Shown here: positions 30,367 to 61,444 of the stretch, piece by piece
How the letters are laid out: each line of letters starts with the position of its first letter
How positions within the stretch are numbered: the first letter of the stretch is position 1
NCBI RefSeq assembly: GCF_003086295.3
Contig: NC_092050.1
Location: 149,054,699 to 149,118,698 of the forward strand
Origin: Arachis hypogaea
Lineage: Eukaryota > Streptophyta > Magnoliopsida > Fabales > Fabaceae
Length of the DNA stretch: 64,000 nucleotides
Reading direction: 5' to 3'
The notes under the pieces: model-generated
What the model was told of the DNA's origin: nothing
Database searches by the model: none
Seen by the model: only the letters and a program-made list of their open reading frames with translations
Translations under genes and position numbers: made by a program

Positions 30367-33339
30367 ACTCTTGTACCATGTAAGTTGAATTTCACTAATA
30401 TAGTTTTCAACAACTGAATCAGGGAAATGGGGCTATAATTTTTGTACAGATGAATGACATTCTCTACCTGCCATTTTTATGTACACACACTAAGTGACCT
30501 ATTTGGCTATTTTCCTTTAATTACTTTGTACCAAATGTAATAAGTGCCCATCGTCCATCTGTACTATTAAATAGTAATTAAGTATCCGATTTTGTGTCAG
30601 CAGTTTTTCCTAGTATTTTGCTACTTAGGATTGGTATAGTATTAGCAATGTTTTGGAGTTGAAAATGTGAGGGTGAACTCTGATGGCATTGGTCTAGTTT
30701 CGAAAATTGGACCAGACTTAGATGGTTCGATCGGAAAGCTAGTAAAGTGACTGGTTCGGTTTGTCATTCCGATTGGCTATGCAACTTATCAACTCAAGTT
30801 TAGTCCTCGAGTGAACCGGCCAATTGAAATTGAACTGCCGACTAAACTGTTCCTTGAACCGCTCTGGACTCCATGCAAGAAACAGGTGGTTCAAACCTGG
30901 TACATTATGTGTTTGGTAAGCGATAGAAAAATTGAAACAAACAAATAAGTTGTGTGACTTGTGTCTCTGTCTGTTTCACTGCCTTTATTTTTTTTATAGA
31001 CACAAAATTTTGCATTCTAACTGTCCTGATTTCACAATAATTTTGCCTTTGTCTTGCACATTCTAGGAACGTGCCGATGTTGCTGAATATTGTTCTAACT
31101 GCCATGTCCAAATATATAAATCATGATAATAAGGTAGAAACTAGAAAGAGTATCCACATTTAAATTATTGAATATTGATTACTTAAAAAAGCTAGCGCAT
31201 TTAAAATTCAGCATATTTAAAGTTTTAAACACAATTTACATATAAATACATACAATTTAGAATATGCTAATTGTTTTTTCTTAAAAAATAACAGATAATT
31301 CGAGATGGGGAGAGAATAATATAATCAAAAGACTTTAACATATAAGTAATATCAATTATGTTTGGTAAAATAAATTTAAAAATTTAAAAAGATCATAATA
31401 AATATAAATATAAAAATAAATTTAAATTTAAATATTTATTAATATATAAAATTTAATAGATTTTTTTAATTCTAATAAGTATAAATTAACTTAAAAAATA
31501 TCTCCTTAAATATTTTTAAAAATATTTTTAATTTTTATACACCGCAAATAAAAATATATAATCTTTTTTATTTATCAAACACAAAATAAACACAGATAGC
31601 TTCTCAAAAAATTTAGCCAAACCAAGTTTTTAGTAGGCAACTTCAACTTAATTTTTCAAAATAAATAAAAGAAAAAAAAATCCTATCCATTATAATCACG
31701 TTAATGTTACCTATAATTGGTGTGAATATATTAACCTATCAGCTATTTGTTTCTGCTTGAACCGTCATAATAAGTTAGGAGAATTCTTGAACCTTCTAGC
31801 TGCTTCTTGCTACCAATTCTTGGAACAGCACAGCAAGACAAGATTGCCCTTTATAATTTATAAATAAACTAGATTTATATCTGCATGTAATGAATAATAC
31901 TTTAAAGATTAGGGAATGATATTGCTTTCTATTTGATAATGTTATCCCTACTACCCTCACAACAATAGGAAATTCCTTCCATCCCCATAAAAAATAAGAT
32001 GGAAGATAATTTAATAAAATCTCATAAGATGGGAGTGGGAATATCAGATTTAAAAATTGACAAAATCAGTCTTCTAAAAAATAATGTAAAATTTATTTTG
32101 ATTAAATTATTTATAAGTTATGTTTATTTACAATTATTTATGTTGAGATGTGAAACTATATAGTAATAGTTTAGTAACATATAATATTTCAATATTATTG
32201 TGTTTTTTTTTTATTATTATTATTTTTTATCATTAAAACATCTTACATGGCCAAAATAGACTCTCATTAGTTGTTATTTATTTTACTACTTTTTTCCCCC
32301 TTGAATATTAGATTTGTTAATTTTATTTTACTCCTATAACCTAAGATTTAAGTATTGTTTTTCTTTTTTTTGTGTGTGTGTTTCATAACCTAATATTTGA
32401 GCACCTTAACAAGGGGAAAGGAAGAAATAAGGATATTAAAGTCACCACGAAAAGGATGTCAATTTTACTACTAAAGTGATGTGATAATACTATAAAATAC
32501 TATGTAACAACTACTTAATATAACACTATTTAATTTCTATTTTAATATATTATAGATAGACATATATGCATGTGTTTATAATTGACAAAATCAACTTGGA
32601 ATTTATGTATTTAGCATCCATTTTCAAAGTACATTTAACTTGGTCGTTATTGGTTAAATTAAGACAAATGAGAAAAAAAAATTAAAAAAAAAAATTAAGG
32701 GGGAATATAACAGGTTGTTTGGAAGGAAGGATTATTGATAATCATTGAGCAGAGATAATATGTTAATTCCAAACGGAACTGAAGAAGATTCCATGGCAAA
32801 TGAAGCCAGATCAGAGTATTTTTTTTTTCTTTTTGAAAAATGTTTAAGTTTGCACGTATTACTTATTAGCCTATCAAAGTTGACATATATATAAAATTGT
32901 TTGAATGTTGATAAAAATATTTATAGACCATATATCAAAGTAACATTAATATCTGACCATAAAAATCAAATTTCCATCCTTATAGAGGTTGAATTCATCT
33001 CTTATCATTTAGGTCAGCCAGTTTAGTGGGTTTTTTTTTTTTAAATTTAACTTTTGGTTCAATAATTGAATCACAACACGCTGGAAATTGTTTGACATTT
33101 TAGGTGCATTAATAGTAATATGTCCGGATCATCAGATATCACCCATGGCGGCTGTGGTTAAATAGAAAAAAAATATTTATTTATTTTAAGATTAATGGTT
33201 GGAATTTTTAATCAATCCTCCTAATTATCCTTCTAATATTTAAAAGAGTAAAAATTCTATGTTACTTTTTAAAAACATAAATATAATAAAAATTTAAAAC
33301 ATTTTTTATTTAGAAGTTAAGAAGATAATTAGAAACAGA
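30367..33339. other. 3' untranslated region of the NINJA gene, then AT-rich intergenic sequence
   Basis: The 3' UTR probably ends near 30540-30600. At 30660-30900 there is a GC-richer patch with repeated GGTTCG and GAACCG motifs in both orientations, perhaps a decayed inverted-repeat element. The remainder has A and T runs and no recognised gene. Confidence 0.5.
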
Positions 33340-34843: not shown

Positions 34844-36166
34844 ATGAAGAATATTAATAATAATGATAATAATAAACATGGTTCTATTATTACCCTCTTA
34901 TTATTAGTTCTAATTTCAATGTTAATCCAGCATGTTAGAGCAACAAATGCTTCTTCTTCATCATCAGGAGATGCTGTGTCCAATTTCCAACCAAGCCTTG
35001 TTGTTGTGATAGGAATCCTTGGCCTAATGTTTTCACTAACATTTGTTCTTCTTGTTTTTGCCAAATTTTGCCAAAGAGGAGCACTTGTCCCTCTTCTCCA
35101 AACAGAGAATCAAGAAAACCAATTGTTATCAAGGTCTAGAAGATTCTCAGGAATTGATAAGAATGTTATTGAGTCATTACCCTTCTTCAGATTCTCATCC
35201 CTAAAAGGATCAAAGGAAGGTTTGGAGTGTTCTGTTTGCTTATCGAAATTCGAAGATGTCGAAATCCTTAGGCTCTTGCCAAAATGTAAGCATGCTTTTC
35301 ACATTGATTGCATTGATCACTGGCTTGAGAAACACGCAAGCTGCCCTCTTTGCAGGCACAAGGTGAATCCGGCCGACGAGTCGATTTTCGCCTATTCAAA
35401 CAGCTTAAGGAGGCTTGTTAACAATAATTCGGCCGCAGCCGAAGACTCCAACATGGAGCTCTTCGTCCAAAGAGAGGAGGAAGAAGAAGGAGGAGAAGCA
35501 GAGCGACGCGGCTCAACAAGATTTAGTATTGGAAGTATTAGTCTCCGGAGATTATTTTCGAAGGATGTTAAGGAAGAAGAGTTGCCTATACAGAACAGAA
35601 CCGATTGCGAAAACAAGGAGTACCATAAACACAAACACCGGATTACTATCTCCGATGTTGTGTTTAAGAATCGGTGGAGCAATGTTAGTTCTTCAGACAT
35701 AATGTTCTTGAACTCCGAGATGCTTAACGAGGTTTCGAGTTCCCGGTTCGACAACCAGAATGCAAATGATCAAGGAATCTTGATCCTCAAGGAAGAGATG
35801 GAGAGGAAGATTTCATTTGAGAGCAAAATTGGTGCAATAAACAAGATTAGTAACTCAAATTCAGATAAGGCTCCTTCTTCTTCTTCTTCTACTTCTATAA
35901 AGCATTTGATGAATGAACATAGTGAGAAAAGGTCAATGTCAGAAATCATAGGAGTTTCAAGATTTGGTGAAATAGGAATGATGATGAAACAACAAAACAG
36001 AGCATTTAATAAGGATTCTTCTTCTTTGATTGATGAGAACAATAACATGAAAGAAGAAAGGATGAGGCAGCTTTGGTTTCCAATTGCAAGAAGAACAGTT
36101 CAATGGTTTGTGAATAGAGAAACAAGGTCTCATCATAAGAATAATCAAAAGACATTAGATGTATAG
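34844..36166 (+). CDS. ATL-family RING-H2 E3 ubiquitin ligase (ATL42/43-like)
   Basis: A single-exon gene of 440 codons, as is usual for plant ATL ligases. A hydrophobic N-terminus (residues about 14-30) looks like a signal peptide or first membrane segment. A second hydrophobic segment spans about 49-75. A GLD-type motif (GIDKNVIESLPFF) lies near residue 104. The RING-H2 domain at about 128-170 shows CSVCLSKF, the proline-preceded LPKCKHAFHIDCIDHWL and CPLCRH, with all eight zinc ligands present. The Ser, Asn and Glu-rich C-terminal half is typical of this branch. It should be membrane-anchored and transfer ubiquitin from an E2 to unknown targets. ATL42/43 placement is from overall resemblance only. 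Confidence 0.93.
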   Translation: MKNINNNDNNKHGSIITLLLLVLISMLIQHVRATNASSSSSGDAVSNFQPSLVVVIGILGLMFSLTFVLLVFAKFCQRGALVPLLQTENQENQLLSRSRRFSGIDKNVIESLPFFRFSSLKGSKEGLECSVCLSKFEDVEILRLLPKCKHAFHIDCIDHWLEKHASCPLCRHKVNPADESIFAYSNSLRRLVNNNSAAAEDSNMELFVQREEEEEGGEAERRGSTRFSIGSISLRRLFSKDVKEEELPIQNRTDCENKEYHKHKHRITISDVVFKNRWSNVSSSDIMFLNSEMLNEVSSSRFDNQNANDQGILILKEEMERKISFESKIGAINKISNSNSDKAPSSSSSTSIKHLMNEHSEKRSMSEIIGVSRFGEIGMMMKQQNRAFNKDSSSLIDENNNMKEERMRQLWFPIARRTVQWFVNRETRSHHKNNQKTLDV

Positions 36167-37250
36167 TTTTTTTTAGTACAGATTCAAATATAGTTTGGTT
36201 TCATATTTTCAATCTTTTGATTTCATCAATACTTTCATGTAGATTTTGTTGGAAAGTATATAGTTAGGTTAATTAGCATAGCAGGTAAACCTTAATCTCT
36301 TGTTTGTTTGTTTTTTTTTTTTTTTAATGGTAATTTTTTAATTCTTGTTTGTGAGGATTTGCTTAACAAGTTTGTTACTCTTTTCTTCCTATAATAGAAA
36401 TTGAATTAGGTCACTCATGGTATGAATAATAAAAAAAAATATTGTGGATTAAAATCGGATTTGTTCTCTTAATTAAGCAATATATATGTGAAAATGTTTT
36501 ATTCATATTCAATTATATATTATTACATTAATAAGCTGATAACATGAGACTAATACTAGATAACTAACTTTTTCTTAACTTATACTAGCTAATTTTAAAA
36601 ATTTATTTTATTTATCTTAAATTCTATATCCTAAATCATAAATATTTATTCTTAAATTTTAAATTATAAATTTAAATTCTAAAATTGACTAATATTCACT
36701 AATTAAAAGTTGATTCTCTATATTTTTTCAAAAGTATAATCTATATTAATTAAACTCTTTTATTTATTTATTTATTATTCACCAAGCAACAATGAAATTT
36801 ATGTTGATTTAAAAGAAGACAGCTTCATGCTGCTTTGGTGAACAATATTATATATATGTGCGTGTGAACTATTTAATTAGAATAACAAACTTAAAGATAG
36901 TTTATTATACATTGTCCATAGTCTTTTTGCTTAGCGTAATATCTTTACAACTAAATATAGGCAACAAGTAAATGAATGCCACCTGGTTTTAAATTGATGA
37001 GCATGTTCTTTTTTATTTCTTTATTTCTCCTATTAATTTTCTTTTTTCACGAAGCAACCAGCAAACGGTATTATATTGGATCAATCCCAAAAGATCAAGA
37101 AATAAATCTCATTCTTTGATTAAATTAGAATAATACTACCAGTAAGTATTATTATTTTTTGTTCATATTTAATTAATAATAATTTATATTTAAATTTATA
37201 AATATTTTATACATAATAAATATATAATTTATATCTATATAAATTAATAC

Positions 37251-37289
<39 letters not shown>

Positions 37290-37954
37290 TAATAAAATTT
37301 ATTTATTAAAAATAATTTAATATTTATACTGACTAAATAATAATCAAAACTACTAAAAATTATTAACTTTGGAGAGTTTCTCTTCCTATAATCCTATTAG
37401 TAACTTACTGACACTTTTTTATTTAAAAAAAATAAATTAATCTTCAAAAGATTTAAATTGGACATTCAATATTTTTATACACTAAAAAACGATTACTGAA
37501 ATAATTTTTTTTTTGTTGCTCACAGTATTTTTTAGCCCAAATTAAAAACTAATTCGTCACGGATTGAAGCTCCATTTAAGAGTCTGGCCAATAAATTACA
37601 TTGAAATAATTATTTTAGTAAAGTATTACGTATTTACAATTAATTATTAAAAAATATTTAATATTATTATCGGTAAACACTAATGTTAGTAATTATGAAA
37701 GAATGTGTTCAAATATATTCCAAATACAATAAAATTAGGTGTACAAATATTTTTTTTAAATCAAGTTTTTAATTAAATTATCATGTTCTTTTTGTCTTTC
37801 GTACATATGCTTATGCTGGTTCTCCTTTTTCTTTGAGGCCACCACTGTTTTCTTATCATTATTTATTTTTTTTTAATTTTTTTTGTTATTATCATTATTA
37901 TCGTTATCTTTGTCGTCTTTATCTTTTTCTTTTTATATATGTTCAAAAAATTAG
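36167..37954. other. 3' flank of the ATL gene and AT-rich spacer
   Basis: The 3' UTR probably covers the first 200-300 bases. A TA dinucleotide microsatellite of about 15 repeats lies near 37257-37287. Nothing else was recognised. Confidence 0.6.
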
Positions 37955-38174
37955 AATATAAAAATTTTAATGTACATTACATAAATTTTGGTGTACAGTA
38001 CAAAATTCTTTTAACATGCATTACAAAATTTTTTTAAAGAACTATATGCTCAGAACATTGACACTCAACAAATAAAATACACACAATACAAAAATTTTAG
38101 TACATAGCACATAAATTTTAGTAAATAATACAAAAATTTTAATACCCAACATAAATTTTTGAAGAACCATATAT
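37955..38174. repeat. Degenerate short repeats flanking the split MITE, left part
   Basis: Variants of CATAAATTTTGGTGTA and ACAAAAATTTTAGTACA recur every 20-30 bp. The same motif resumes on the right side at about 44055-44260, showing that the MITE and the gypsy element inserted into a pre-existing repeat tract. Confidence 0.6.
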
Positions 38175-38285
38175 CTAAAACATGAGAAATGTTAGGGGGC
38201 CAGCAACTTTTGTGATTTGTAGCCATCAAATAGCCATCAATGATGATTTTAATGGTGTGAGATTGGTGTGAGATTTCATCCAATG

Positions 38286-38833
38286 TGTCACGGCCTTGGA
38301 CACACTCCAACGCTACCGTGCCGGCACTCGGACTTACTCAACCTCTTGAGCTAAGACCAAGTCAGCCTAACCCTCAATACTTAGCAAGAAAGCTAAGAAC
38401 ACAAGAGAACACAAGAGAAAGGAAGCTTTGGTGAAAGAACACTTTATTGCTCAAGTGTGGTTACAAATGATTCACACACCCAAACTCTAACTCTCATCCC
38501 TATTTATAGCCATCCACCTCCTCAATGGATGGTTAGGATTAAATCTAATCAACGGTCCAGATTAATCATCCAGAACCTTCTTTACAAATATCTATCCTAC
38601 CACAACTCTCTAAATGTTTCTAGATTATTCCATATCACTCTTTATACTTCTATATACATCTACACTCTTCTAGAATACTCTATGACCTTCCAGAGTCTTC
38701 TAGAACCTTCTAGGGTATTCCGGGACCTTCTAGGACATTCTAGAACGTTCCGGAACCATCTAGAGTATTCTCAAACACTCCAGAAAACTATACAAACACT
38801 GTTAAATCTAACCTTCTAAAATTTTCCGTGACA
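38286..38833 (-). repeat. 3' LTR of the chromovirus
   Basis: 548 bp. A TATAAATA (minus) lies at 38508-38501. It contains the same 10-bp array as the other LTR (38606-38785). It could drive transcription leftward, out of the element. Confidence 0.97.
38606..38785 (-). promoter_or_regulatory. Heat-shock-element array in the 3' LTR
   Basis: A copy of the array at 43741-43920, offset by 5135 bp. Confidence 0.8.
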
Positions 38834-38847
38834 TTCTCCCCCACCTA
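38834..38847 (-). other. Polypurine tract overlapping the ORF end
   Basis: On the minus strand TAGGTGGGGGAGAA precedes the 3' LTR. The TAG stop of gag-pol is the first triplet of this stretch, so coding and priming sequences touch. Confidence 0.9.
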
Positions 38848-41800
38848 ATGCGCAGACGTCCTCGTCGCGTTCTGTTCATGATAGCGCTCTAGGTGTTCTT
38901 GGAATTGCCACAGATCTTCGCGAGTTTCCCAGCTAGCTTCAGTTATCGGGAGCCCTTTCCACTTGATCAAGTATTGGATACTTGGTGGTACTCCTCTTCG
39001 TCGCACGACGCGATTAGCTAGGATCTCTTCGATTTCTTTGTCAAAAGATCTAATCACCACAGGCGGAGCACGACTCGAGTTACCTCTACTCGGTTCGTCT
39101 TGGTCCTCATGATATGGTTTAAGCATACTCACATGGAAGACCGGGTGGATCTTCATAGAGGGAGGGAGTTGTACTTTATAAGCAACCTCCCCAACACGTC
39201 CAATGATCTCAAATGGTCCTTCGTATTTGCGGATTAAACCCTTATGAACCTTGCGAAAGGCTTTGAATTGTTGTGGAAGAAGTTTGATCATTACCTTGTC
39301 TCCCACTTGATAGCTTGCATGCCTCCTCTTCTTATCTGCCCATTTCTTCATCCTCTTGGCAGCTTTGTCGAGGTAAGAACGAGTGACATCTGCTTGTTCT
39401 TCCCATGACTTAATCATATGATAAGCTCCAGGGCTCTTTCCTGAGTAAGAGGAAGAAAGAGAGTGAGGCGTAAGCGGCTGTTGTCCAGTCACAATCTCGA
39501 ACGGACTCTTCCCTGTAGACTCACTCCTTTGCAAATTGTATGAGAACTGAGCAATGTCGAGGAGTTTTGTCCAATCCTTCTGATTAGCGCTCACAAAATG
39601 CCTTAAGTAACACTCGAGTAAGGCATTCACTCTCTCAGTCTGCCCATCGGTTTGAGGATGGAAGCTTGTTGAGAAATGAAGCTCCGACCCAAGGAGTTTG
39701 AACAACTCTGTCCATAGTCGTCCTGTGAAGCGTGGATCTCGATCACTAATGATGCTCTTAGGCAATCCCCAGTACTTCACCACATTCTTGAAGAATAGTC
39801 GTGCTGCTTCCTCTGCAGTGCAGTCAGTAGGGGCAGGTATAAAGGTAGCATACTTCGAAAATCGATCCACTACCACGAGAATAGATCCAAACCCCTCGGT
39901 CTTCGGTAAGGCAGAGATGAAATCTAGAGAGACACTTTCCCACGGTCGCTCTGATGGAGGCAGAGGTTCCAACAACCCACTTGGTGTCTTGTTTTCAATC
40001 TTATCTTGTTGGCACACAAGACAAGTCTTCACATAGCTCTCCACTTCATCTCTCATTTGAGGCCAATAATAAGAAGATTCAATGAGTGCTAAGGTCCTTC
40101 GCTGACCTTGGTGACCAGCCCACTTGGTGTCGTGGCATTCTCTTACCAACTTCCTTCTCAGATTGTCCCATTTAGGAACGTATAGTCTTCTCCCTTTTGT
40201 GTAGAGAAGGTCGTTTTCTAACCAAAATCTTTTGGTCTTACCTTCTCTAGCCAACTCCACCAACTTCTTGGCTAATGGATCGTGATGCAACCCTTCCTTG
40301 ATGATATGCATAATATCTCCTTCCACCATAGAAATGGCCGCTAACTCAGCCTTGCGACTCAGCGCATCTGCTACGACATTAGTCTTGCCTGACTTGTATT
40401 CGAATTCGAAATCAAACTCAGCCAAGAAGTCTTGCCACCTAGCTTGTTTGGGGCTTAACTTCTTTTGAGTTTGGAAGTAGCTTGTAGCCACATTGTCTGT
40501 CTTGACGATGAAGTGTGAACCAAGCAAGTAGTGACGCCAAGTTCTTAGACAATGCACCACTGCGGTCATCTCCTTCTCTTGGACAGTGTATCGCCTCTCT
40601 GTATCATTCAACTTGCGACTCTCAAAGGCAATAGGATGTCCTTCTTGCATCAGAACTCCTCCAATAGCGTAGTCAGAAGCATCAGTGTGGACTTCAAATA
40701 CCTTTGAGTAGTCGGGTAGTGCTAGTACTGGTCCTTCTGTGATAGCAGCCTTCAACTCATCAAAGGCCTTTTGACACTCCTTTGACCATTCCCAAGAGTG
40801 ATTCTTCTTGAGAAGATCAGTTAATGGTGTAGCCTTAGCGGAGTATCCCTTGATAAACCTCCGATAGTAATTAGCCAACCCAAGGAATGACCTCAATTCA
40901 GATACCTTGTTTGGCAGCTCCCACTCTTTGATAGCCTTCACCTTTCCTTGATCCATGCAGAGAGTTCCACCTTTAATGATGTGTCCCAAGAAGTGGACTT
41001 CGTCCCTTGCAAAGGAACATTTTTCCTTCTTCACATATAGGTTATTCTCTCGCAAGATCTTGAACACGGTTCGTAAGTGTTCTACATGTTCCTCCAAAGT
41101 ATTGCTATAGACAACAATGTCATCCAAGTAGACCACTACAAACCGATCAAGGTAAGGTCGAAAGATCTCATTCATCAAGGTACAGAAGGTCGCAGGAGCG
41201 TTGGTCAAGCCAAAAGGCATCACCAACCACTCATACGATCCATACCTCGTGACACACGTGGTCTTAGGCTCATCACCATCGGCAATTCTCACTTGGTGAT
41301 ATCCTGACCTCAAATCTAGCTTTGAGAACCACTTGGCTCTACCAAGTTGATCAAACAAATCGGCTATCAAAGGAATGGGGTATTTGTTCTTGATGGTTAC
41401 CTTGTTAAGTGCTCGATAGTCGATGCATAGCCTCAATGAACCATCATGCTTCTTTTGGAATAAGACTGGTGCGCCATAAGGTGCCTTCGATGGACGGATG
41501 AACCCAGCATCTAGCAAATCCTTGAGTTGCTTCTTCAACTCCTCAAGTTCTGGCGGTGCCATCCTATAAGGTGTTGAGGCGGGCGGCGTTGCTCCTGACT
41601 CCAATTCAATCTTGTGGTCCACCTTCCTCCTAGGGGGTAGTTGTTTTGGCAACTCGGGAGGCATCACATCCTTATTTTCTTCAAGGACTTCCTTGATTTT
41701 GGGAGGGACGTCTTCTCTTTCAGATGTTGACTCCTCTTGTAATAGAGCCAAATATGTAATCTCTCCCTTCTTGAACCCTTTCTTGAGTTGCATAGCAGAG

Positions 41801-43377
41801 AGTATCGGTGGTCCTCCAACTTTAGAGACTGTAGGGACCATGCATGGAGACCCTTTCTCCATGACACATACTACGTCGTAGTATGGCATAGGTATTATAT
41901 TTGCCTTCCTTTGCAAATCGAGCCCGATGACTATTTTAAAATCATCCATGGGTGCTACTGAGAAATCCACAAGGCCCTTCCAAGAACCAAGAGTCATCTC
42001 AACCCCTTTTGCTACTCCCTTAAGGGGTTCACCCTTGGTATTCACGGGTTTGAACCAGCCATTCTTTTCGGTGATCTTCAACCCAAGCCTCTTTGCTTCA
42101 TCAGGCGTGATGAAGTTGTGTGTAGCACCAGTGTCGATCATAGCCATGACAGGCTTTTCATTGATAAAGGCTTTGACATACATCAAGCCTTTCTTTTCTG
42201 CAGTACTTGCCTCTTTGGTCTTCACAGCATTTATGTGTTGGATAGATCCAACACACTCAGTTACTTGAGTTTGAGCTTCTCGTTCCTCAGCAATAGATGC
42301 CAAAGTCCCTAGCTTGGGACAATCCTTCATTTGGTGCGGTCCCTTGCACACGAAGCATCCTCCTTTGGGCACGAAAGCCTTCTTTTTTTCTTCGTACTCT
42401 TTCTTTGAAGAATATTTTCCTTCCTTCTTGGTTGAGAAGCTCTTTCCCTTGTCTCCCCCACCTTTAGCAGAACTAGGCTTGGAGGAAGACTTAGGTTTAG
42501 AGTCTCCCCTATGATACTCAGTGAGTGATTCGGCCACCACGATGGCCTCATCGACATCCTTAACATTCCTTCTTTGTAGTTCTTGCTTTGCCCAAGGTTG
42601 GAGTCCATCAATGAAGAAGAACAATGCATCCTCTGATGCTAAGTTGGGGATTTGAAGCGTGAGAGTAGTAAACTCCTTTACGTAGTCGCTAATCGTACTC
42701 TTGTGCTTCAACTCCCTCAACTTCTTCCTTGCTTCATAAACCACATTCTCAGGGAAGAATTGTCTTTTCAATTCCCTTTTGAAATCTTCCCATGTGGCTA
42801 TGTTGCAAGTTCCCTTTTCCATATCTACGCACTTTCTCCTCCACCACAAAGTAGCATTATCAGAAAGGTAGAGAGCTGCAGTGCGTACCTTTATTGCTTC
42901 TTCGACCACCCCTTGGCCTTCGAAGTACCTCTCCATTTGCCATAGGAAGTTCTCCACCTCGCGAGCGTCCCTTACGCCCTTGAACTCCTTTGGCTTGGGG
43001 AGATCAATCTTTGTCGTCTCCCTTATAATGGTTGGTCGAGATTTCGCCTCCTCGAACCAAACTCGAACTTCCTCAAATAGCTTTAAGGAATTCTCAAGCT
43101 TCTCTTCAATTTGGAGCATGCTTTCTTTGAAAGCATCTAGTTCTCCTAATACGTGAGCCTCGAGGGTCTCCTTATCATGTTCTATCCTTTGGAAGCGCTC
43201 ATCCATAGAGGATAGAACATTTTCCAACATAGAAACTCTTTCTTCTAAGAAGTTAGAGTCCTTACCTCTAGGCTCACTTGAAGAACGGACCTTCTTGCCT
43301 CCCCATTGAGAAAGAATAGTATCCCTTCCCCTTTGAGACTCAACATGCTCCATGGTGATACTAGAAGCCATTCCCAC
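38845..43377 (-). CDS. Chromovirus gag-pol polyprotein, intact
   Basis: 1510 codons without interruption. Coiled-coil N-terminus; retrotransposon gag domain (about 110-300); zinc knuckle [13 protein letters not shown] (about 340); aspartic protease [10 protein letters not shown] (about 412); reverse transcriptase with YLDDIVVYS (about 749); RNase H starting [12 protein letters not shown] (about 894). Integrase follows with an HHCC finger (about 1082-1122) and D, D, E residues in SLDFIS, ISDRDP and TERVNA (about 1150, 1210, 1249). A chromodomain of about 50 residues lies near the C-terminus ([15 protein letters not shown]). All catalytic residues I can check are present. ATGs at 43377 and 43371 are both possible starts, 24-30 bp after the primer-binding site. 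The chromodomain usually steers integration to marked chromatin. Confidence 0.97.
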
Positions 43378-43405
43378 AAGCGACTTGTGCTCCCTCTCGA
43401 ACCTT

Positions 43406-43417
43406 GCTCTGATACCA
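43406..43417 (-). other. Primer-binding site, initiator tRNA-Met type
   Basis: On the minus strand TGGTATCAGAGC begins three bases after the 5' LTR. Confidence 0.95.
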
Positions 43418-43635
43418 AATTGTCACGGCCTTGGACACACTCCAACGCTACCGTGCCGGCACTCGAACTTACTCAACCTCTTGAGCTAAGACCAAGTCAG
43501 CCTAACCCTCAATACTTAGCAAGAAAGCTAAGAACACAAGAGAACACAAGAGAAAGGAAGCTTTGGTGAAAGAACACTTTATTGCTCAAGTGTGGTTACA
43601 AATGATTCACACACCCAAACTCTAACTCTCATCCC

Positions 43636-43643
43636 TATTTATA
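43636..43643 (-). promoter_or_regulatory. TATA box of the chromovirus
   Basis: Minus strand GGCTATAAATAGGG context. It lies about 98 bp downstream of the heat-shock array and about 53 bp upstream of an AATAAA signal. Confidence 0.8.
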
Positions 43644-43740
43644 GCCATCCACCTCCTCAATGGATGGTTAGGATTAAATCTAATCAACGGTCCAGATTAA
43701 TCATTCAGAACCTTCTTTACAAATATCTATCCTACCACAA

Positions 43741-43920
43741 CTCTCTAAATGTTTCTAGATTATTCCATATCACTCTTTATACTTCTATATACATCTACAC
43801 TCTTCTAGAATACTCTATGACCTTCCAGAGTCTTCTAGAACCTTCTAGGGTATTCCGGGACCTTCTAGGACATTCTAGAACGTTCCGGAACCATCTAGAG
43901 TATTCTCAAACACTCCAGAA
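43741..43920 (-). promoter_or_regulatory. Eighteen-unit, 10-bp phased heat-shock-element array
   Basis: Every 10 bp the sequence repeats a variant of NNTTCTAGAA. Heat-shock factors bind alternating nGAAn and nTTCn pentamers, so each unit is one TTCnnGAA half-turn pair. The best run is TTCTAGAACGTTCCGGAA at 43873-43890, four perfect modules. TTCTAGAACCTTC at 43833-43845 has three, and TTCTAGAA also occurs at 43803-43810. Outer units (43741-43800) are weaker. Unit spacing equals about one helical turn. Confidence 0.8.
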
Positions 43921-44050
43921 AACTATACAAACACTGTTAAATCTAACCTTCTAAAATTTTCCGTGACAAATGACTCACTTTTCTTTGCTGGTTACATGCT
44001 GGCCAGAATTTAACAAAGTTTCTGACCCCCTAGACTTTCTCCTAAAATAT

Positions 44051-44401
44051 TAGCATCTAACCAACAAAATACACACATCACATAAATTTTGGTGCATAGA
44101 AATCTTGGTGCATAACACAAAAATTTTGGTGTGCAATAATACACACAATTTTAAAGAACTACATATTCAAAACATTTATATACATTTTTGTGTATATATC
44201 AATAAATTTTTGTGCTCTCCAATAATGCGTACATTTTATTTTTGAACAAGATGTCTAAAATGAGCACAATAATTATGTGTGCATTGAACTTACCACATTT
44301 ATATACATCATTAGATTTTATTAAATAAAAATTAAAGGCTTATATAATAAAAGAGCATTGATAGACTCTAATAGATACATAATATCTTAGTACATAAATA
44401 A
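44051..44401. other. Right part of the degenerate ATTTTGGTG repeats and AT-rich spacer
   Basis: It continues the short repeats seen at 37955-38174. No gene was seen. Confidence 0.6.
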
Positions 44402-44682
44402 GAGTAAACACCCAAATCGGTCCCTGTCTATTGCAAATTAGGACAAAGGCGACCCCTCACAAAAAAAAATCACCCACGCCAGTCCCTATCCGTGCATAAT
44501 ATAACTCATTGCGCCCCTTCCCTTGTATTCCCCGTCCATAGTTGACAGAACAATCTGATCTGGCAGTTACCGATATTGATCTGGAAATTAGTTCAGAGTT
44601 AAGTGCCAATGTAGATTAGGAAAAATGGATAGGGGTTGATTTGTCCCTCAAACGGCGTCGTTTTTGGGTTAAAGAGGGAGGA
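44402..44682 (+). repeat. Left terminal inverted repeat of the MULE
   Basis: About 280 bp, inverted relative to 48371-48661, with small indels. Confidence 0.85.
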
Positions 44683-44768
44683 AACCTTAACTTCGATGGT
44701 CCTCTGGTTCCCCAATCTCTCCACAGTAGCTCGTACTCCAAACAACAATAACAAAACCCTAGAGCACC

Positions 44769-45291
44769 ATGGTTGGAAGTGGAGAACGTTGCTCATCCTC
44801 CAACCTGCGTATTAGAGGCAATAATTTAAATTGTAGCATGAACTCTAGTGAGAGTGTTGCAGGTCGAAGGAAGAAGAGATGGGTCTCCCCAAAGTGCAAT
44901 TACGGGTTGCATGCTATTCTATTCATGTATGGGATCAAAAATAATTCAGATAGGTTATTCTTACGTTGCCCTTACTTCAAGGTATGTTCATGGACAGTTA
45001 TGTATTGATTTTGTTCAATTCTGTAGTTACTTCAAGGTATTTTCATGGTTTTAATTTTTTGATTTTGTTTAATTGTAGACTGCAGAAGCTCATTGCTCAT
45101 TCCTTGTATAGCTAGATGATTATGTTTCTTCGTTTAATGAGTATGTTGTAAAGACACTATCAAAAGAAGTATTGCCGCAGAAGAAGCATCGATTTGAAGG
45201 CCTAAGTGATGCAGTGAATGACAAAGTGAAAAAGTTAGAATTTAGGTTAAGTGGATTAGAAAATCAATTGGAGAAGAGTAGAAAAAAATAG
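44769..45291 (+). pseudogene. zf-GRF-type small gene with one intron, premature stop
   Basis: Exon 1 (44769-44981) starts MVGSGERCSSSN and contains KCNYGLHAILFMYG and RLFLRCPYFK, matching a zf-GRF finger that continues with AHCSF in exon 2 (45079-45291). The intron GTATG...TGTAG is 44982-45078. The TAG at 45109-45111 falls where the family usually has a Trp, and the second zinc position reads Tyr instead of Cys. The tail is a coiled region (KVKKLEFRLSGLENQLEK). GRF proteins of this size are common inside legume MULEs. Their role there is unknown. Confidence 0.7.
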
Positions 45292-46056
45292 GTGAAAGTA
45301 GATGTTTGGGGTTAGGTTGTAGTATTATCGCATTTTTTGGTGGGGTTATGGTACTTGTTTATTTTGGACAATTGTGTATGAAACTTGATGAATCACTTTT
45401 AAAAGTTTTTTCCTTGAATTTAATCTAAATTCGTGCAGTAAATATATTTGTACATGTAGCATGGATTCAAGTCATTTCATATAAAGCATAGCAGTTCGTA
45501 CATTATATTCATATTATCATCAAACACGCAATTTATCTGTTCACAGTTCATCTATCATAGTAGAGTAGGCAACAACATGGCCTTAAATAAAACAACTAAT
45601 AAGTATCTTGGAATCATTGTATCACTTCAAACTAAAGAGTCAAAAAATCAAAACAACAGTATCACATTTCTATAACTCCATTAGCATTGTCACCCCTACT
45701 TAGGAGGCCTGAGTCCTGAAAGCCTAAAGTCGAGTGTTGGCACAAATTGCAAAAATCTTAATGCAGTAGTTGAAGTTGCAGCAGCCATCGTCTCTTGAGA
45801 AATTGCATCAGTGGTGTTTCTTGGAGTTATCTTTCCAGCTATTGAGTCATTCGATTGGTTCTGTGAGGTGTGAGGCATTAGCTTTGGAGCTTGGGAAGGT
45901 TGAGATTTGAACCATAAGATTGGCTCTGGTGCTGGTATGGGTGGGAGCACAAAACATGGAGCTATGGGTCTAATAATCTGGTGCTTCTATCTCTCTAAAT
46001 GGTGTAGGATTGTCATTGGAGTTTTCTCCTACAGCCTGTTACAAGTTGACTTTAAT
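45292..46056. other. Internal MULE sequence, nothing recognised
   Basis: No domain was recognised on either strand. The 45696-45950 minus frame is short and without motif. Confidence 0.5.
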
Positions 46057-46447
46057 GTAGCATTTGGTATAGAGACAGAAACTGAAAGACTGATACTGAG
46101 AGATAGAGACTTAAAGACAGAGACTGAAATAAATTTCAGTATTCTGTTTGGTGCAAAGTGGGAGACAGAAATTAAAACGAGAATGAAGCTCTAATTTAAT
46201 TTGTACAAAAAGTAAAATTGGAATTAATTAATTGAAATGAGAGTATTTTAGGTATAACATGTTATTAAAGTTTCAGTTTCCATCTCTAAAAATTTCATTC
46301 TCCTGTGTCCCCACTTTTTGGAAGTACTGAAATAGTGAAATTTTAGGGACAGAGACAGAAATTTTAGTACCAGTCTTTGAACCAACAAACATGATACTGA
46401 GTCTCAGTCTTCCAGTCTCTATCCCAGTACCTCAAAACAAACACTAC
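46057..46447. mobile_element. MITE-like element nested in the MULE
   Basis: It begins GTAGCATTTGGTATAGAGAC and ends with the inverted equivalent (minus strand GTAGTGTTTGTTTTGAGG). Subterminal GACAGAGAC and GTCTCTATC blocks are inverted. TTAAT and CTAAT flank it, a possible duplication with one mismatch. Confidence 0.65.
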
Positions 46448-46975
46448 CTAATAGTTATATAAATGACAAATCTATGGAATTGAGATGTAATAATATGAAG
46501 CATGAAACAGGTTTTTATTTTTTTTGAAAAAATTCAAAAGATGACCTTCTCAGCTTGTGGTGCAGATTGTGAGACTGAAATTTCTTCTCTCTGATTTTGG
46601 GTCGCTGCTCTAGTTCTGATAGACTTTTTGGACAGTTTCTTCTGGGCTTTTCTTGCTTTAGTCTATAAGAAATCAATATGTTACAGAAAGCATTCAACAA
46701 TATAGTATAACATATATTCCTAAATCCTAGACTCACCACAGAATCTAACATTGGCCCTCCTCACATCATTGGTGCTTTTACGACCTTGTTCTACCTAATC
46801 ATTGACAAGAAGAAAAAAAAATCACAACTCAACTCTCTTCTAAATCTAATTAGGACATATAACAAAGTGAAGAAGTTAATGTTTTCCACAACTCAATGCC
46901 CAACACGAACATTGTACTTGATTAGTGTTTGTTGTTGGATCAGTACTTATTGCTGGATCAACGTTTGATGCTGGA

Positions 46976-47891
46976 TCAATGTTTATCATAATCAGAGTCT
47001 AATTCTTCCCCAACTATTTCAGAGTTTGAACCTATTATATTTTCAGCCAGTCCATTTTCAGACCCCACACCACCCCCTGCTTCAGGCCCTTCACCTACTG
47101 TACATTTTACCTCAGTTTTTCCATTCCTCAGAATATGTGTCCTCCTCTTACCTGAATACTTCTTGGAAGTCCGTTTCTTGGCTGTCTTTGGAGAATAATT
47201 TGGACCACCTTTACTTGGTCCAGCATTATCCCTACTATTTGGGCCACTCTTGATTAATTTTCTATTTGGGCCAGACTTCACACCTCACCATCTAATCCAG
47301 AATTCACCTCACCAGCTGGACCACACTTCACCTCACCAGCTGGGCCTTGACTAGCTCTCTTCCTTGGTGATACCAACTTTTTCTTCAATCTCTCATTCCT
47401 TCTCTGTTCCTCACTATCTCCACTGCTATGAGTATCTTCATATCTCGGATGAGGTGGTTTGTATGGATCGTCCTCAATTGTTTCATACCCATCACTTGAG
47501 GATGATGAGTCACTCAAAATAACCTCCTCAGCATGCTTCTCCTCATCCACAACTTCTGGCACACTAACCGGATGATCAAAGTAGATGTAGATTTTATTTG
47601 TCTTTTTATTTTATTCTTGTTATTCCTCATGTCATTTATCTCAGAATCACCCCTCATTACATGTAAGCCAGATTCTAAGTCAGGTGCCATGCTATCAAAC
47701 CAAAACATAGTCTTGTATTCTGTGTAACCCAGCTGCTTCAGTAATGCTTCGAAATCAAAGAAGTTCACCAAATCAATGTTTAAAGGTGGCCACTTCTTCA
47801 CTTTTTCATCAACATATTCTAATTTACCCTGTGAATTTCTCTTAAAATTTTCTCCATGATGAAAAACAGGAACTACTTCAAACTCATCCAT
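46976..47891 (-). pseudogene. PB1-like N-terminal fragment of a MULE transposase gene
   Basis: The frame from 47891 reads MDEFEVVPVFHHGENF with a later FFDFEALLKQLGY, the hallmark of the N-terminal PB1-like domain of plant MuDR-type proteins. A frame change near 47590 continues into an acidic Ser, Asp and Glu-rich segment (47562-47278). After another stop comes a Lys, Gly and Pro-rich segment (47281-46976). The DNA-binding and catalytic regions that should follow are absent. It is a relic and cannot be an active transposase. Confidence 0.7.
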
Positions 47892-48370
47892 CTATAAATT
47901 ATTATTACTAATCAAAATTCAGTTCATGACATTTTATCTCACTGTGCCAGTGATCTAAACTACTGACAAGCAATGTTATTTATTTAACAAATTAGTTAAA
48001 AAATTTCAAATTCCATTCACGGAAACAACATTTTAAAAAAAAACAACCAGGCAAACCATTTCAACACCATTGAACACTCCAACACCAACATGCAATTTAG
48101 GAATAGAGTTTGGATATTGCTAATTTTTTAGATAGTCAAATGCGTCACTAACCTAAACGGCGACAAAAGCTGCCTCCACTCCACGATGTCCGTGACTCCG
48201 TCAATTGCGCAGTTAGAAGCGTCCTCTAAGTCCTTCTTAGCGGCCTTGTCAGCACCAACACTAGTTACTTCCACTACTGTCTATCCTTTCGCATGAAGAA
48301 TGTTACATGGGTTTTGGTTATTCTGTAAATACGAGTTAGGGCTTGGGAGTTATGTGGATGAGAACGATGT
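47892..48370. other. Internal MULE sequence before the right TIR
   Basis: Probable promoter side of the minus-strand relic. No other feature was recognised. Confidence 0.4.
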
Positions 48371-48661
48371 TTCTTCCCTCTTTAACACAAAAACGATGCC
48401 GTTTTTGAATGTGACAAGGGGACAAATCGACCCCTATCTATTTCTCCTAATCCACATTAGCATTTAACTCAAAACTAACTTTCAGATCAGCACTGGTAAC
48501 TGTCAGATCAAATTTTTTTGTCAACTATGGACGGAAGATACAAGGGAAGAGACGCAATGAGTTATATTATGCACAGACGGGGACCAACGTGGGTGATTTT
48601 TTTGTGAGGGGTCGTCTTGTCCAAATTTAAAATGAACAGGGACCGGGTTGAGTGTTTACTC
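48371..48661 (-). repeat. Right terminal inverted repeat of the MULE
   Basis: Inverted match to 44402-44682. Confidence 0.85.
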
Positions 48662-49281
48662 TTATTTGTTCTCCATTTCTGAAATTTGGTATTAATACCT
48701 CGTTGACTTTGTGACGGCGCCAAAGAAGGACGTGTCACGGAGTTGGATTAATCAGTTGCGGCCAACTCCACCATAAGCCTATGCCGGCTTGCCTTTATGG
48801 GCTTTCACTTAGATTGATGCGAAGTTTTTGGATTAACTTTCGTTAAATGATCTAACCCATAAAGAAAAAGGCTTTACAAAATGAATGTTGGTATGAATAT
48901 GATTTTACGGAATTAATTTTGAATAAAATGAAATTGGTATTAATGTAATTTGTGTAAGGGGGCGGATTCATGTTTATAATTGTAGGGGCAACTGGCAAGT
49001 GTCCCCTCTGAATTTTAAAGATTTTTTAAATAATACATAATAACAAAATTTATTTGTCCTTATTATGTAATTAAATTTAATTTGATTGTATTATTAAACT
49101 TCACTTATCAATTTTAATTATGTAAAAATAAATTAAACAGTAATTCAATATTTAAATAAATTTGTTACAATAATTAAAAAAAGAGAATGAAATAATTACA
49201 GATTTATTATTTTACAATTAGAACTAATAAATAAATTTACAGGTTGAAAAAAATTTGCGTATATACTTGGTGAATATCACT
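48662..49281. other. Intergenic spacer, nothing recognised
   Basis: AT-rich apart from a GC-richer patch at 48710-48830. No coding or repeat signal that I can support. Confidence 0.5.
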
Positions 49282-58751: not shown

Positions 58752-58990
58752 TATTGACAATAAAAATTTTATTTAATTTATATTATTATTTAAATTATAA
58801 TTTTAGTATTTTAATTTGTTAGTTAGATAATTTAAAAATTAATTATATTTTATAATAATAAAGTATAATTATAAAAATTATTATTATGTACCCCCACTGA
58901 CAAAATTATTTTTTTGGTAAACATTCACAAAATTATTTGAATCTACTACTGATTTTTACTTATTTTTGTTATTTAGATTATTTTTTTATT
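58752..58990. other. AT-rich spacer, nothing recognised
   Basis: A and T runs only. Confidence 0.6.
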
Positions 58991-60219
58991 AGTTTAATAT
59001 TAATGGTAATTAATTATAGTAATAATACATAAGAAATACATAAGATTTTTCACTTTTCTATTTTTTACGCTCACTGCACTATCAAGAAAATCTCATGTCT
59101 TAAACTATTCAAACTGTAAGCTGTAATGTTAATGGTTTGAAGAACTAGAAGAGAGAAAAAAATTGATTTTTTTTATTTTGATAAAAAAATAAAAAAATAA
59201 AAAATTTCATGTACTCTTTACGTACTCTTATTATAATTAATTATCCATCAACATTAAATTAAAAAATAATCTAAATAAAAATTTTAATTTATATTTTTTT
59301 ATTTTATATTTTTTCTCATAATAAGATCAATAATATCAATTCCATTTCGTTCTTTCTCCTGTGTTCTTGACACCTCTAAGCACCATTTCCACACACGCCT
59401 CAAAAAAGAAAAAATGAATGAAACAATGCAAGAAGTTACTGCTGTCACCACTGTCACAGTAGTCGCCCACATGGAAGAGATGTATAAATGCTGCTACTGT
59501 GTTTATGCTAATTTTTTATCATAAGATGAAAATGGAAAAACATGCGAGAAAGCATCACACGCGCTTCATATAAGGTCATTTGCAAACCATGTGGCAATGC
59601 ATTTGGTAGACGTAAAATACTTTAATGTTCATCAATTGAAAGTAATTAAGTCTAATTTGAGTAAACAATTTAAATTTTTAAAAAAAAAAATTAAATATAA
59701 AGTCTTTTGTTAATAATATTTTAAATTATTTTGTACTTAAATTTTTAATTATAAATAAATGTTTTTTTTTTTATATTCTTCTTCTAATAATATAATTATA
59801 ATTTGATTTGGTAAAGTTTTTATTTTTTTTAAAACAGTTGATAAAAAGTACCATCACTTTTCTTGATAAATTAGGATTACTTTGAAAAAAAATCTAGCAG
59901 AGAGAGTACGTACTCTGTCTTCAGGAAAAATGAGAAAATGAGAGAGCGTCATACATTAGAATTAGCGTGTTGACTTTTGTTTAATTATGAGAGATGCAAA
60001 TACTATAGAGAAGGATATGTGTGTGTAAGCTAAGCACTAAGCATCACATACACCCCTCCCTCTGAGAAGGATATGTGTGTGTAAAAATATGCTAAGCTAG
60101 GCTGTTAGATGCAGTTACATTCCCTCCCTCTGAGTCAGTTAGTTCTCCCTTTCTGTTCTGTATGAGCTGGCAAGAGTAGTTGCTCTACAACTAACTTAGT
60201 TAGTCTATATAACTTAGTT
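58991..60219 (+). repeat. Tandem duplication, unit 1 (about 1.23 kb)
   Basis: Nearly identical to 60220-61444 (offset 1229-1230). The unit has an AT-rich first part, a short Cys-containing ORF (intact only in unit 2, 60642-60851) with no recognisable family, and an LTR start (TGTTAGATGCAG near 60099). It ends inside that LTR at CTATATAACTT. Confidence 0.93.
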
Positions 60220-61444
60220 AGTTTAATATTAATGGTAATTAATTATAGTAATAATACATAAGAAATACATAAGATTTTTCACTTTTCTATTTTTTACGCT
60301 CACTGCACTATCAAGAAAATCTCATGTCTTAAACTATTCAAACTGTAAGCTGTAATGTTAATGGTTTGAAGAACTAGAAGAGAAAAAAAAATGATTTTTT
60401 TTATTTTGATAAAAAAATAAAAAAATAAAAAATTTCATATACTCTTTACGTACTCTTATTATAATTAATTATCCATCAACATTAAATTAAAAAATAATCT
60501 AAATAAAAATTTTAATTTATATTTTTTTATTTTATATTTTTTCTCATAATAAGATCAATAATATCAATTCCATTTCGTTCTTTCTCCTGTGTTCTTGACA
60601 CCTCTAAGCACCATTTCCACACACGCCTCAAAAAAGAAAAAATGAATGAAACAATGCAAGAAGTTACTGCTGTCATCACTGTCACAGTAGTCGCCCACAT
60701 GGAAGAGATGTATAAATGCTGCTACTGTGTTTATGCTAATTTTTTATCACAAGATGAAAATGGAAAAACATGCGAGAAAGCATCACACGTTTCATATAAG
60801 GTCATTTGCAAACCATGTGGCAATGCATTTGGTAGACGTAAAATACTTTAATGTTCATCAATTGAAAGTAATTAGGTCTAATTTGAGTAAACAATTTAAA
60901 TTTTTTTAAAAAAAAAATAAATATAAAGTCTTTTGTTAATAATATTTTAAATTATTTTGTACTTAAATTTTTAATTATAAATAAATGTTTCTCTTTTTTT
61001 TTATATTCTTCTTCTAATAATATAATTATAATTTGATTTGGTAAAGTTTTTATTTTTTTTAAACAGTTGATAAAAAGTACCATCACTTTTCTTGATAAAT
61101 TAGGATTACTTTGAAAAAAAATCTAGCAGAGAGAGTACGTATTCTGTCTTCAGGAAAAATGAGAAAATGAGAGAGCGTCATACATTAGAATTAGCGTGTT
61201 GACTTTTGTTTAATTATGAGAGATGCAAATACTATAGAGAAGGATATGTGTGTGTAAGCTAAGCACTAAGCATCACATACACCCCTCCCTCTGAGAAGGA
61301 TATGTGTGTGTAAAAATATGCTAAGCTAGGCTGTTAGATGCAGTTATATTCCCTCCCTCTGAGTCAGTTAGTTCTCCCTTTCTGTTCTGTATGAGCTGGT
61401 AAGAGTAGTTGCTCTACAACTAACTTAGTTAGTCTATATAACTT
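60220..61444 (+). repeat. Tandem duplication, unit 2
   Basis: Differs from unit 1 by scattered substitutions and small homopolymer indels. Here the LTR continues past the unit end to 61601, so this is the original junction and unit 1 is the added copy. Each unit also holds an internal direct repeat of GAAGGATATGTGTGTGTAA (61238 and 61296 in this unit). Confidence 0.93.

Follow-up and report, generated by a model that had tools for sequence, protein, structure and literature searches.

Among the systems described so far, the closest to the locus reported here is ONSEN (COPIA78) of Arabidopsis, an LTR retrotransposon that carries heat shock elements (HSEs) in its LTR, among them a 4P site which arose by duplication of an nTTCnnGAAn sequence (PMC5059998). 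ONSEN activation requires the HSFA1 genes, and the heat-shock factor (HSF) HSFA2 binds the HRE of the ONSEN LTR in vitro (PMC3907296). The same kinds of sites, i.e., 4P, 3P, gap, and step HSEs, have been gained in the LTRs of COPIA37, TERESTRA, and ROMANIAT5, all copia elements, in clusters of at most five adjacent nGAAn motifs as far as the consulted part of PMC5059998 reaches. According to this survey of Brassicaceae copia LTRs, heat induction reached as much as thousand-fold where 4P sites were present and as much as hundred-fold where there were 3P sites; gap and step sites were mostly insufficient. In Cryptococcus, the Ty3/gypsy element TCN3 and the element TCN12 carry putative HSEs in their LTRs and move mainly at 37 °C (PMC12810828); however, these elements are fungal, the putative HSEs number two in TCN3 and one in TCN12, and an array goes unmentioned in the consulted part of that description. 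Mobile DNA of another kind, the HSE-bearing Helitrons of Caenorhabditis (PMC6927752), displays motifs consistent with tandem overlapping HSEs, which HSF-1 binds on heat shock, but these are DNA transposons of an animal host, without LTR promoter. Among legumes, LORE1 of Lotus is a chromovirus that still moves (PMC2832683); it has been assigned to the Reina clade and is activated in regenerated plants, and the word heat is absent from the main text of its description. Finally, Gypsy elements raised by heat have been reported in conifers and others (PMC9780303).

We describe here a Ty3/gypsy chromovirus from the peanut Arachis hypogaea, found in a stretch of 64,000 nucleotides that was analysed as a whole (hereafter, the window), whose LTRs hold a long row of HSE-like units. 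Like ONSEN, it is an LTR retrotransposon with HSEs in its LTR and a 4P site, and it would share with ONSEN an origin of these sites by nTTCnnGAAn duplication. Unlike ONSEN, which is a copia element whose four nGAAn motifs form one cluster, in addition to a gap site, and whose copies 1 and 2 have LTR cytosines of the CHH kind only (PMC3907296), it belongs to gypsy, its row comprises 18 units with 20 on-register modules in the LTR, it has CG and CHG cytosines, and its heat response is putative. LTR elements with putative HSEs had already been described in Cryptococcus, namely TCN3 (Ty3/gypsy) and TCN12 (PMC12810828). Among the matches listed in the literature on heat-responsive LTRs and transposable elements, there was no plant Ty3/gypsy LTR with an HSE array, and no HSE array of comparable length was found for any LTR in the heat-responsive LTR literature searched. 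Hence, as far as the consulted parts of these sources reach, heat-responsive plant LTRs are a known kind, and what is new is the length of the array and its single register in a plant chromovirus. The parts of the element are as follows.

38286–43968, minus strand: complete Ty3/gypsy chromovirus of 5683 bp, recognised by its LTR pair, primer binding site, purine-rich tract, ORF, and AATG flanks
43421–43968, minus strand: 5′ LTR of 548 bp with inverted ends TGTCACGG/CCGTGACA, from the LTR comparison
43636–43643, minus strand (element strand): TATA box TATAAATA
43406–43417, minus strand: primer binding site TGGTATCAGAGC, 3 nt off the 5′ LTR
38845–43377, minus strand: single uninterrupted gag-pol ORF of 1510 aa with capsid, protease, reverse transcriptase (RT), RNase H, integrase, and chromodomain
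38834–38846, minus strand: purine-rich tract (AGGTGGGGGAGAA), immediately upstream of the 3′ LTR
38286–38833, minus strand: 3′ LTR of 548 bp that departs from the 5′ LTR at 2 positions, from the LTR comparison

The element has one gag-pol ORF, the order protease, RT, RNase H, integrase, and a C-terminal chromodomain, as is characteristic of Ty3/gypsy chromoviruses. The domains were identified on pieces of the ORF, which matches the Pfam families PF00385 (E 2.7e-11), PF00078, PF17919, PF19259, and PF00665. The primer binding site is presumably complementary to the initiator Met tRNA. A chromovirus with a full ORF and LTRs differing at 2 positions in 548 bp had been announced in a preliminary description of the locus, and both the LTR alignment and the 1510-aa ORF bear this out. 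The element is flanked on both sides by the direct repeat AATG; only these 4 bp match, against target-site duplications of 5 bp in beet chromoviruses (PMC3605345), which makes the flanks a weak point of the description of the element. The chromovirus is itself a nested insertion within a short MITE-like element (38193–38285 and 43973–44032), whose terminal inverted repeats, TAGGGGGCCAGCAACTT and TAGGGGGTCAGAAACTT, are imperfect. When the joined flanks were used to search the window for an empty site, only the chromovirus's own flanks were returned.

Membership in ONSEN (COPIA78) was rejected on the gene order, with the integrase lying between RNase H and the chromodomain, as copia elements have the integrase before the RT. 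The CRM clade, which is defined by a chromodomain (CR motif) extending into the 3′ LTR (PMC3605345), is excluded too: the ORF ends at 38845, the LTR begins at 38833, and the chromodomain does not run into it. The Tekay clade is unlikely by size, a clue and not a phylogeny, the LTR of 548 bp and the element of 5683 bp contrasting with the long LTRs of beet Tekay elements (about 2.6–2.7 kb where undisturbed, PMC3605345). Reina and Galadriel would remain as candidate clades, the size of the chromovirus being near both. The peanut families named in the consulted part of PMC5904367 are Pipoka, RE128-84, and Athena. At the protein level, the A. hypogaea protein P0001, which may be the same locus, differs from two pieces of the ORF at 2 of 310 and 2 of 398 residues (4/708). 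The A. stenosperma protein P0030 differs at 9 of 259 and 8 of 253 residues, and a second protein of this species, P0032, shows 83% identity across 310 positions (36 gap positions). These matches indicate that relatives of the chromovirus are present in the named Arachis genomes. In IMG/VR, a 200-aa RT piece found no relative (88 pattern matches, none confirmed).

The HSE-like sequences of the LTR are the following.

43741–43920, minus strand: array of the 5′ LTR, 18 units of 10 bp each that follow the HSE register, with TC in columns 4–5 in 18 of 18 units, assessed with shuffles
38606–38785, minus strand: 3′ LTR copy of the array, with all 180 bp matching in the LTR comparison
43701–43740, unstranded: proximal extension of the register by four units, two of them degenerate (43721, 43731), from the slot table
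43823–43890, unstranded: densest run, 14 consecutive 5-bp slots with TTC in 7/7 odd and GAA in 3/7 even slots, which together with its counterpart in the 3′ LTR scores highest of all 14-slot stretches of the window
43873–43890, unstranded: perfect four-module HSE (4P) TTCTAGAACGTTCCGGAA; no perfect alternating run of the window is longer
43833–43845, unstranded: perfect three-module HSE (3P) TTCTAGAACCTTC, which together with the next T matches TTCtaGAAnnTTCt
43707–43716, unstranded: proximal on-register AGAACCTTCT (AGAAnnTTCT), 64 bp upstream of the TATA box

The array is composed of 18 units of exactly 10 bp without a single insertion or deletion. Their consensus is CCTTCTAGAA, from which 54 of the 180 cells deviate, and any two of them are on average 57% identical. 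An exact TTC occurs in 12 units, an exact GAA in 5, and the full TTCnnGAA in 4. As TTC and GAA stand 5 bp apart both within and between units, the array forms one register of alternating HSF half-sites. Both LTR differences fall outside the 180 bp of the array; one of them (43705 T, 38570 C) hits an on-register TC position, and over the 22 units of array and extension, TC is on register in 20 units of the 3′ LTR and 19 of the 5′ LTR. The array sits within the LTR upstream of the TATA box, as in heat-responsive LTR retrotransposons, its near edge being 98 bp and the 4P site 230 bp from this box, distances that weigh against a heat-responsive role. At 43873–43890 and 43833–43845, the array contains at least four and at least three adjacent nGAAn modules, which defines 4P and 3P sites in PMC5059998. 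It holds one 4P and one separate 3P site only, and the remainder is mostly of the weaker step or gap kind. The sequence TTCTAGAA is itself a recognised heat shock element (PMC10030974), and Arabidopsis HSFA2 and HSFA3 sites share TTCtaGAAnnTTCt (PMC10230730). In the same LTR, downstream of the TATA box, GAA triplets recur about 10 bp apart at 43523–43557 (AGAACACAAG twice), off the register of the array.

Most of what the preliminary description had read in this row stood up: the 18 consecutive 10-bp units with their coordinates and gapless spacing, the four- and three-module runs, both exact, the position upstream of TATAAATA on the element strand, and more generally an HSE-type array in the LTR of a chromovirus with near-identical LTRs and an uninterrupted ORF. 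Its wording that many units are TTCnnGAA was generous, given the 4 exact cases, and the helical phasing that it proposed does not hold in a strict sense, since, with 10.5 bp to a turn, 17 steps of exactly 10.0 bp build up a drift of about 290 degrees. Two HSF modules of 5 bp each account better for the 10-bp period.

The excess of HSE modules lies in their register. The LTR holds 31 TTC/GAA triplets, a total reached by 27 of 2000 shuffles of the LTR, and 20 of them are on one 5-bp register. On-register modules averaged 4.9 in 2000 dinucleotide shuffles of the LTR, and neither these shuffles nor 3063 other 548-bp windows of the 64 kb exceeded 10. Scoring the HSEs of the LTR against shuffled LTRs, a comparison that the preliminary description had suggested, confirmed the excess. 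Indeed, the three perfect three-module sites (two of which overlap in the four-module run) were reached by none of 1000 dinucleotide shuffles (mean 0.009), as were the four TTCnnGAA (0/1000, mean 0.2) and the 14 three-module scores of at least 9 out of 13.5 (0/1000, mean 0.4). The maximum four-module score of the LTR was reached by 1 and its maximum three-module score by 8 of 1000 shuffles. When all 16 dinucleotides were followed over the whole window at periods of 5–20 bp, only TC at 10 bp reached 15/18, in both chromovirus LTRs. Six further repeat copies of the window, interpreted as the LTRs of three other elements, all lack a 3P site. Across the whole window, TTCTAGAA alone, a weak test, showed no clear excess (6 observed, reached by 4 of 100 shuffles), and the count of seven three-module sites is weak as well, both LTR copies being counted separately. 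The two three-module search patterns are reverse complements and yield identical sites.

We consider it probable that the LTR array acts as an HSF-binding enhancer that switches on transcription of the chromovirus under heat. In such a process, HSF trimers would load on the 4P site (43873–43890) and the 3P site (43833–43845), and loading could spread cooperatively to neighbouring on-register half-sites. The loaded array would then activate transcription from the TATA box (43636–43643), with the proximal AGAACCTTCT possibly bridging the core promoter and the array. The 4P rule of the copia LTRs, as given in the consulted part of PMC5059998, makes an HSF-bound, heat-inducible LTR the best reading of these sites. 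We thus predict that the LTR is heat-inducible through its 4P and 3P sites, the other units of the array being of a kind that would at most assist as step or gap half-sites.

It is unlikely, by our assessment, that the row is only a decaying 10-bp minisatellite of the U3 region, devoid of regulatory role and resembling HSEs by an accident of its founder unit. The small share of exact TTCnnGAA (4/18) would fit such an origin, and so would the internal likeness of the units, which peaks at a lag of 30 bp (0.633, lags 10–60) with TRF reporting periods of 20 and 30, a pattern that slippage duplication would leave. Against it, TTCnnGAA is expected in 0.33% of random 10-bp units of matching composition, so that an accidental likeness is improbable though conceivable. 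The lack of any indel across the 18 units despite their 57% mean identity points to a kept register, and an on-register HSE also stands outside the array, near the TATA box. The way in which the units have decayed bears on the same question. Mismatches are unevenly spread among the columns (33 of 100,000 permutations as extreme), in the direction of the published motif TTCtaGAAnnTTCt: columns 1–2, which this motif leaves free, take 19 of the 54 mismatches in 36 of the 180 cells (P = 0.0012). This test was picked after the column counts were known, and it is consistent with selection and not a proof of it. The HSE columns as a whole are kept only slightly better, with 26 mismatches in 108 TTC/GAA cells against 28 in the other 72 (2568 of 100,000 permutations), and the GAA half of the units is poorer than the TTC half.

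The minisatellite explanation also draws on a scan of 2.9 million viral contigs for an TTCTAGAA-led three-unit HSE row, which returned four contigs carrying two distinct sequences. The perfect alternating TTC/GAA runs on these metagenomic contigs, in 5-bp steps, reach 10 modules (L002 from 4004) and 7 modules (L003 from 2697), i.e., more than the 4 modules of the chromovirus LTR. L001, L003, and L004 have one common sequence around the HSE row, adjoining an AACTT row, and on L002 the row lies inside an ORF that matches a replication-initiation family. All six proteins scanned (two of L003, four of L002) match PHROGs, namely terminase, portal, Sak4-like, Cas4-type exonuclease, DnaB-like helicase, and replication initiation. 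The four contigs thus do not resemble retrotransposons, the scanned proteins being of phage type. Perfect rows of 7 and 10 modules in phage contigs, which have no HSF, mean that a perfect HSE row alone is no proof of an HSF role.

HSFs could also bind the array with heat not being the main trigger, the output being decided by class B HSFs, by other proteotoxic or developmental cues, or by stable CG/CHG methylation. The LTR has indeed 20 CG and 22 CHG cytosines, and, set against the CHH-only LTRs of ONSEN 1 and 2, this makes a firmer silencing possible; the chromovirus LTR may thus be silenced more firmly than ONSEN. Near genes that proteotoxic stress raises in Arabidopsis, Gypsy elements have moreover been reported to contain HSF motifs (PMC8725346), and peanut has 16 HsfB genes that heat raises 6- to 120-fold (PMC13307298). 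On the other hand, a 4P site in the LTR accompanied strong heat induction in the Brassicaceae copia survey (PMC5059998), and we hold a trigger other than heat to be improbable. A regular short sequence period is a known route to DNA curvature, and the row could serve DNA architecture, by bending or by placing nucleosomes, or be the site of another DNA-binding protein, but the drift of about 290 degrees along the array and the fact that its invariant letters are those of the HSF half-sites leave this explanation with hardly any likelihood.

Returning to the array as a heat-responsive enhancer, its history can be partly read from the two LTRs. The LTRs of a retrotransposon are copied together in each round. 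Growth of the array within this copy was rejected because the same 180 bp stand in both LTRs, and the array consequently predates the insertion. As the units are only 57% alike while the LTRs differ at 2 of 548 positions and both carry the same array, this array very probably came down from the parent element. Its sequence is consistent with an array that lengthened as a 10-bp unit was duplicated in tandem. A TTCnnGAA unit would have been duplicated again and again before the insertion, and the register would have been retained since. If 8.12e-9 or 1.3e-8 mutations are assumed per site and year, the age of the insertion is about 0.23 or 0.14 million years, an estimate from two LTR differences only. 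These two differences, together with the 4/708 residues separating the ORF from the A. hypogaea protein (possibly the same locus), suggest that the chromovirus was recently active. Heat induction, HSF binding, and present mobility are all consistent with the sequence of the element.

A more far-reaching version of the heat-responsive enhancer is possible, and we put it forward as a tentative idea that is rather doubtful as a whole. The U3 region would have been rebuilt from one TTCnnGAA unit into a continuous HSF loading track of about 220 bp on a single 5-bp register, kept by selection; many HSF trimers would load on it cooperatively, heat would override silencing, and the gypsy element would still be mobile in peanut.

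The window holds other features around the chromovirus. An ATL42-like gene (34844–36166) encodes a protein 98% identical to an A. duranensis protein and 96% identical to an A. stenosperma protein, which places the host in Arachis or very close to it. Read-out from the 3′ LTR would run antisense across 36166–38286 towards this gene, which is 2.1 kb off, and heat might conceivably drive such a transcript. About 3 kb upstream of the gene lies a further single perfect three-module HSE, TTCTTGAACCTTC (31784–31796). On the other side of the chromovirus, an inverted pair of about 300 bp (81% identical) encloses about 4 kb with short ORFs (44396–48667), which we take to resemble a decayed Mutator-like element, and a head-to-tail duplication of about 1.23 kb (98.4% identical) occupies 58989–61444.

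If the array works as we propose, HSF-driven retrotransposition in plants would not be confined to copia elements, and a major crop genus would harbour a chromovirus that is recent, may be mobile, and is tied into the heat response. With HSF sites that range from strong to decayed along one register, the array would also be a natural series for testing what number and quality of modules are needed against silencing. Each new copy of the chromovirus would, moreover, bring a heat enhancer beside host genes.
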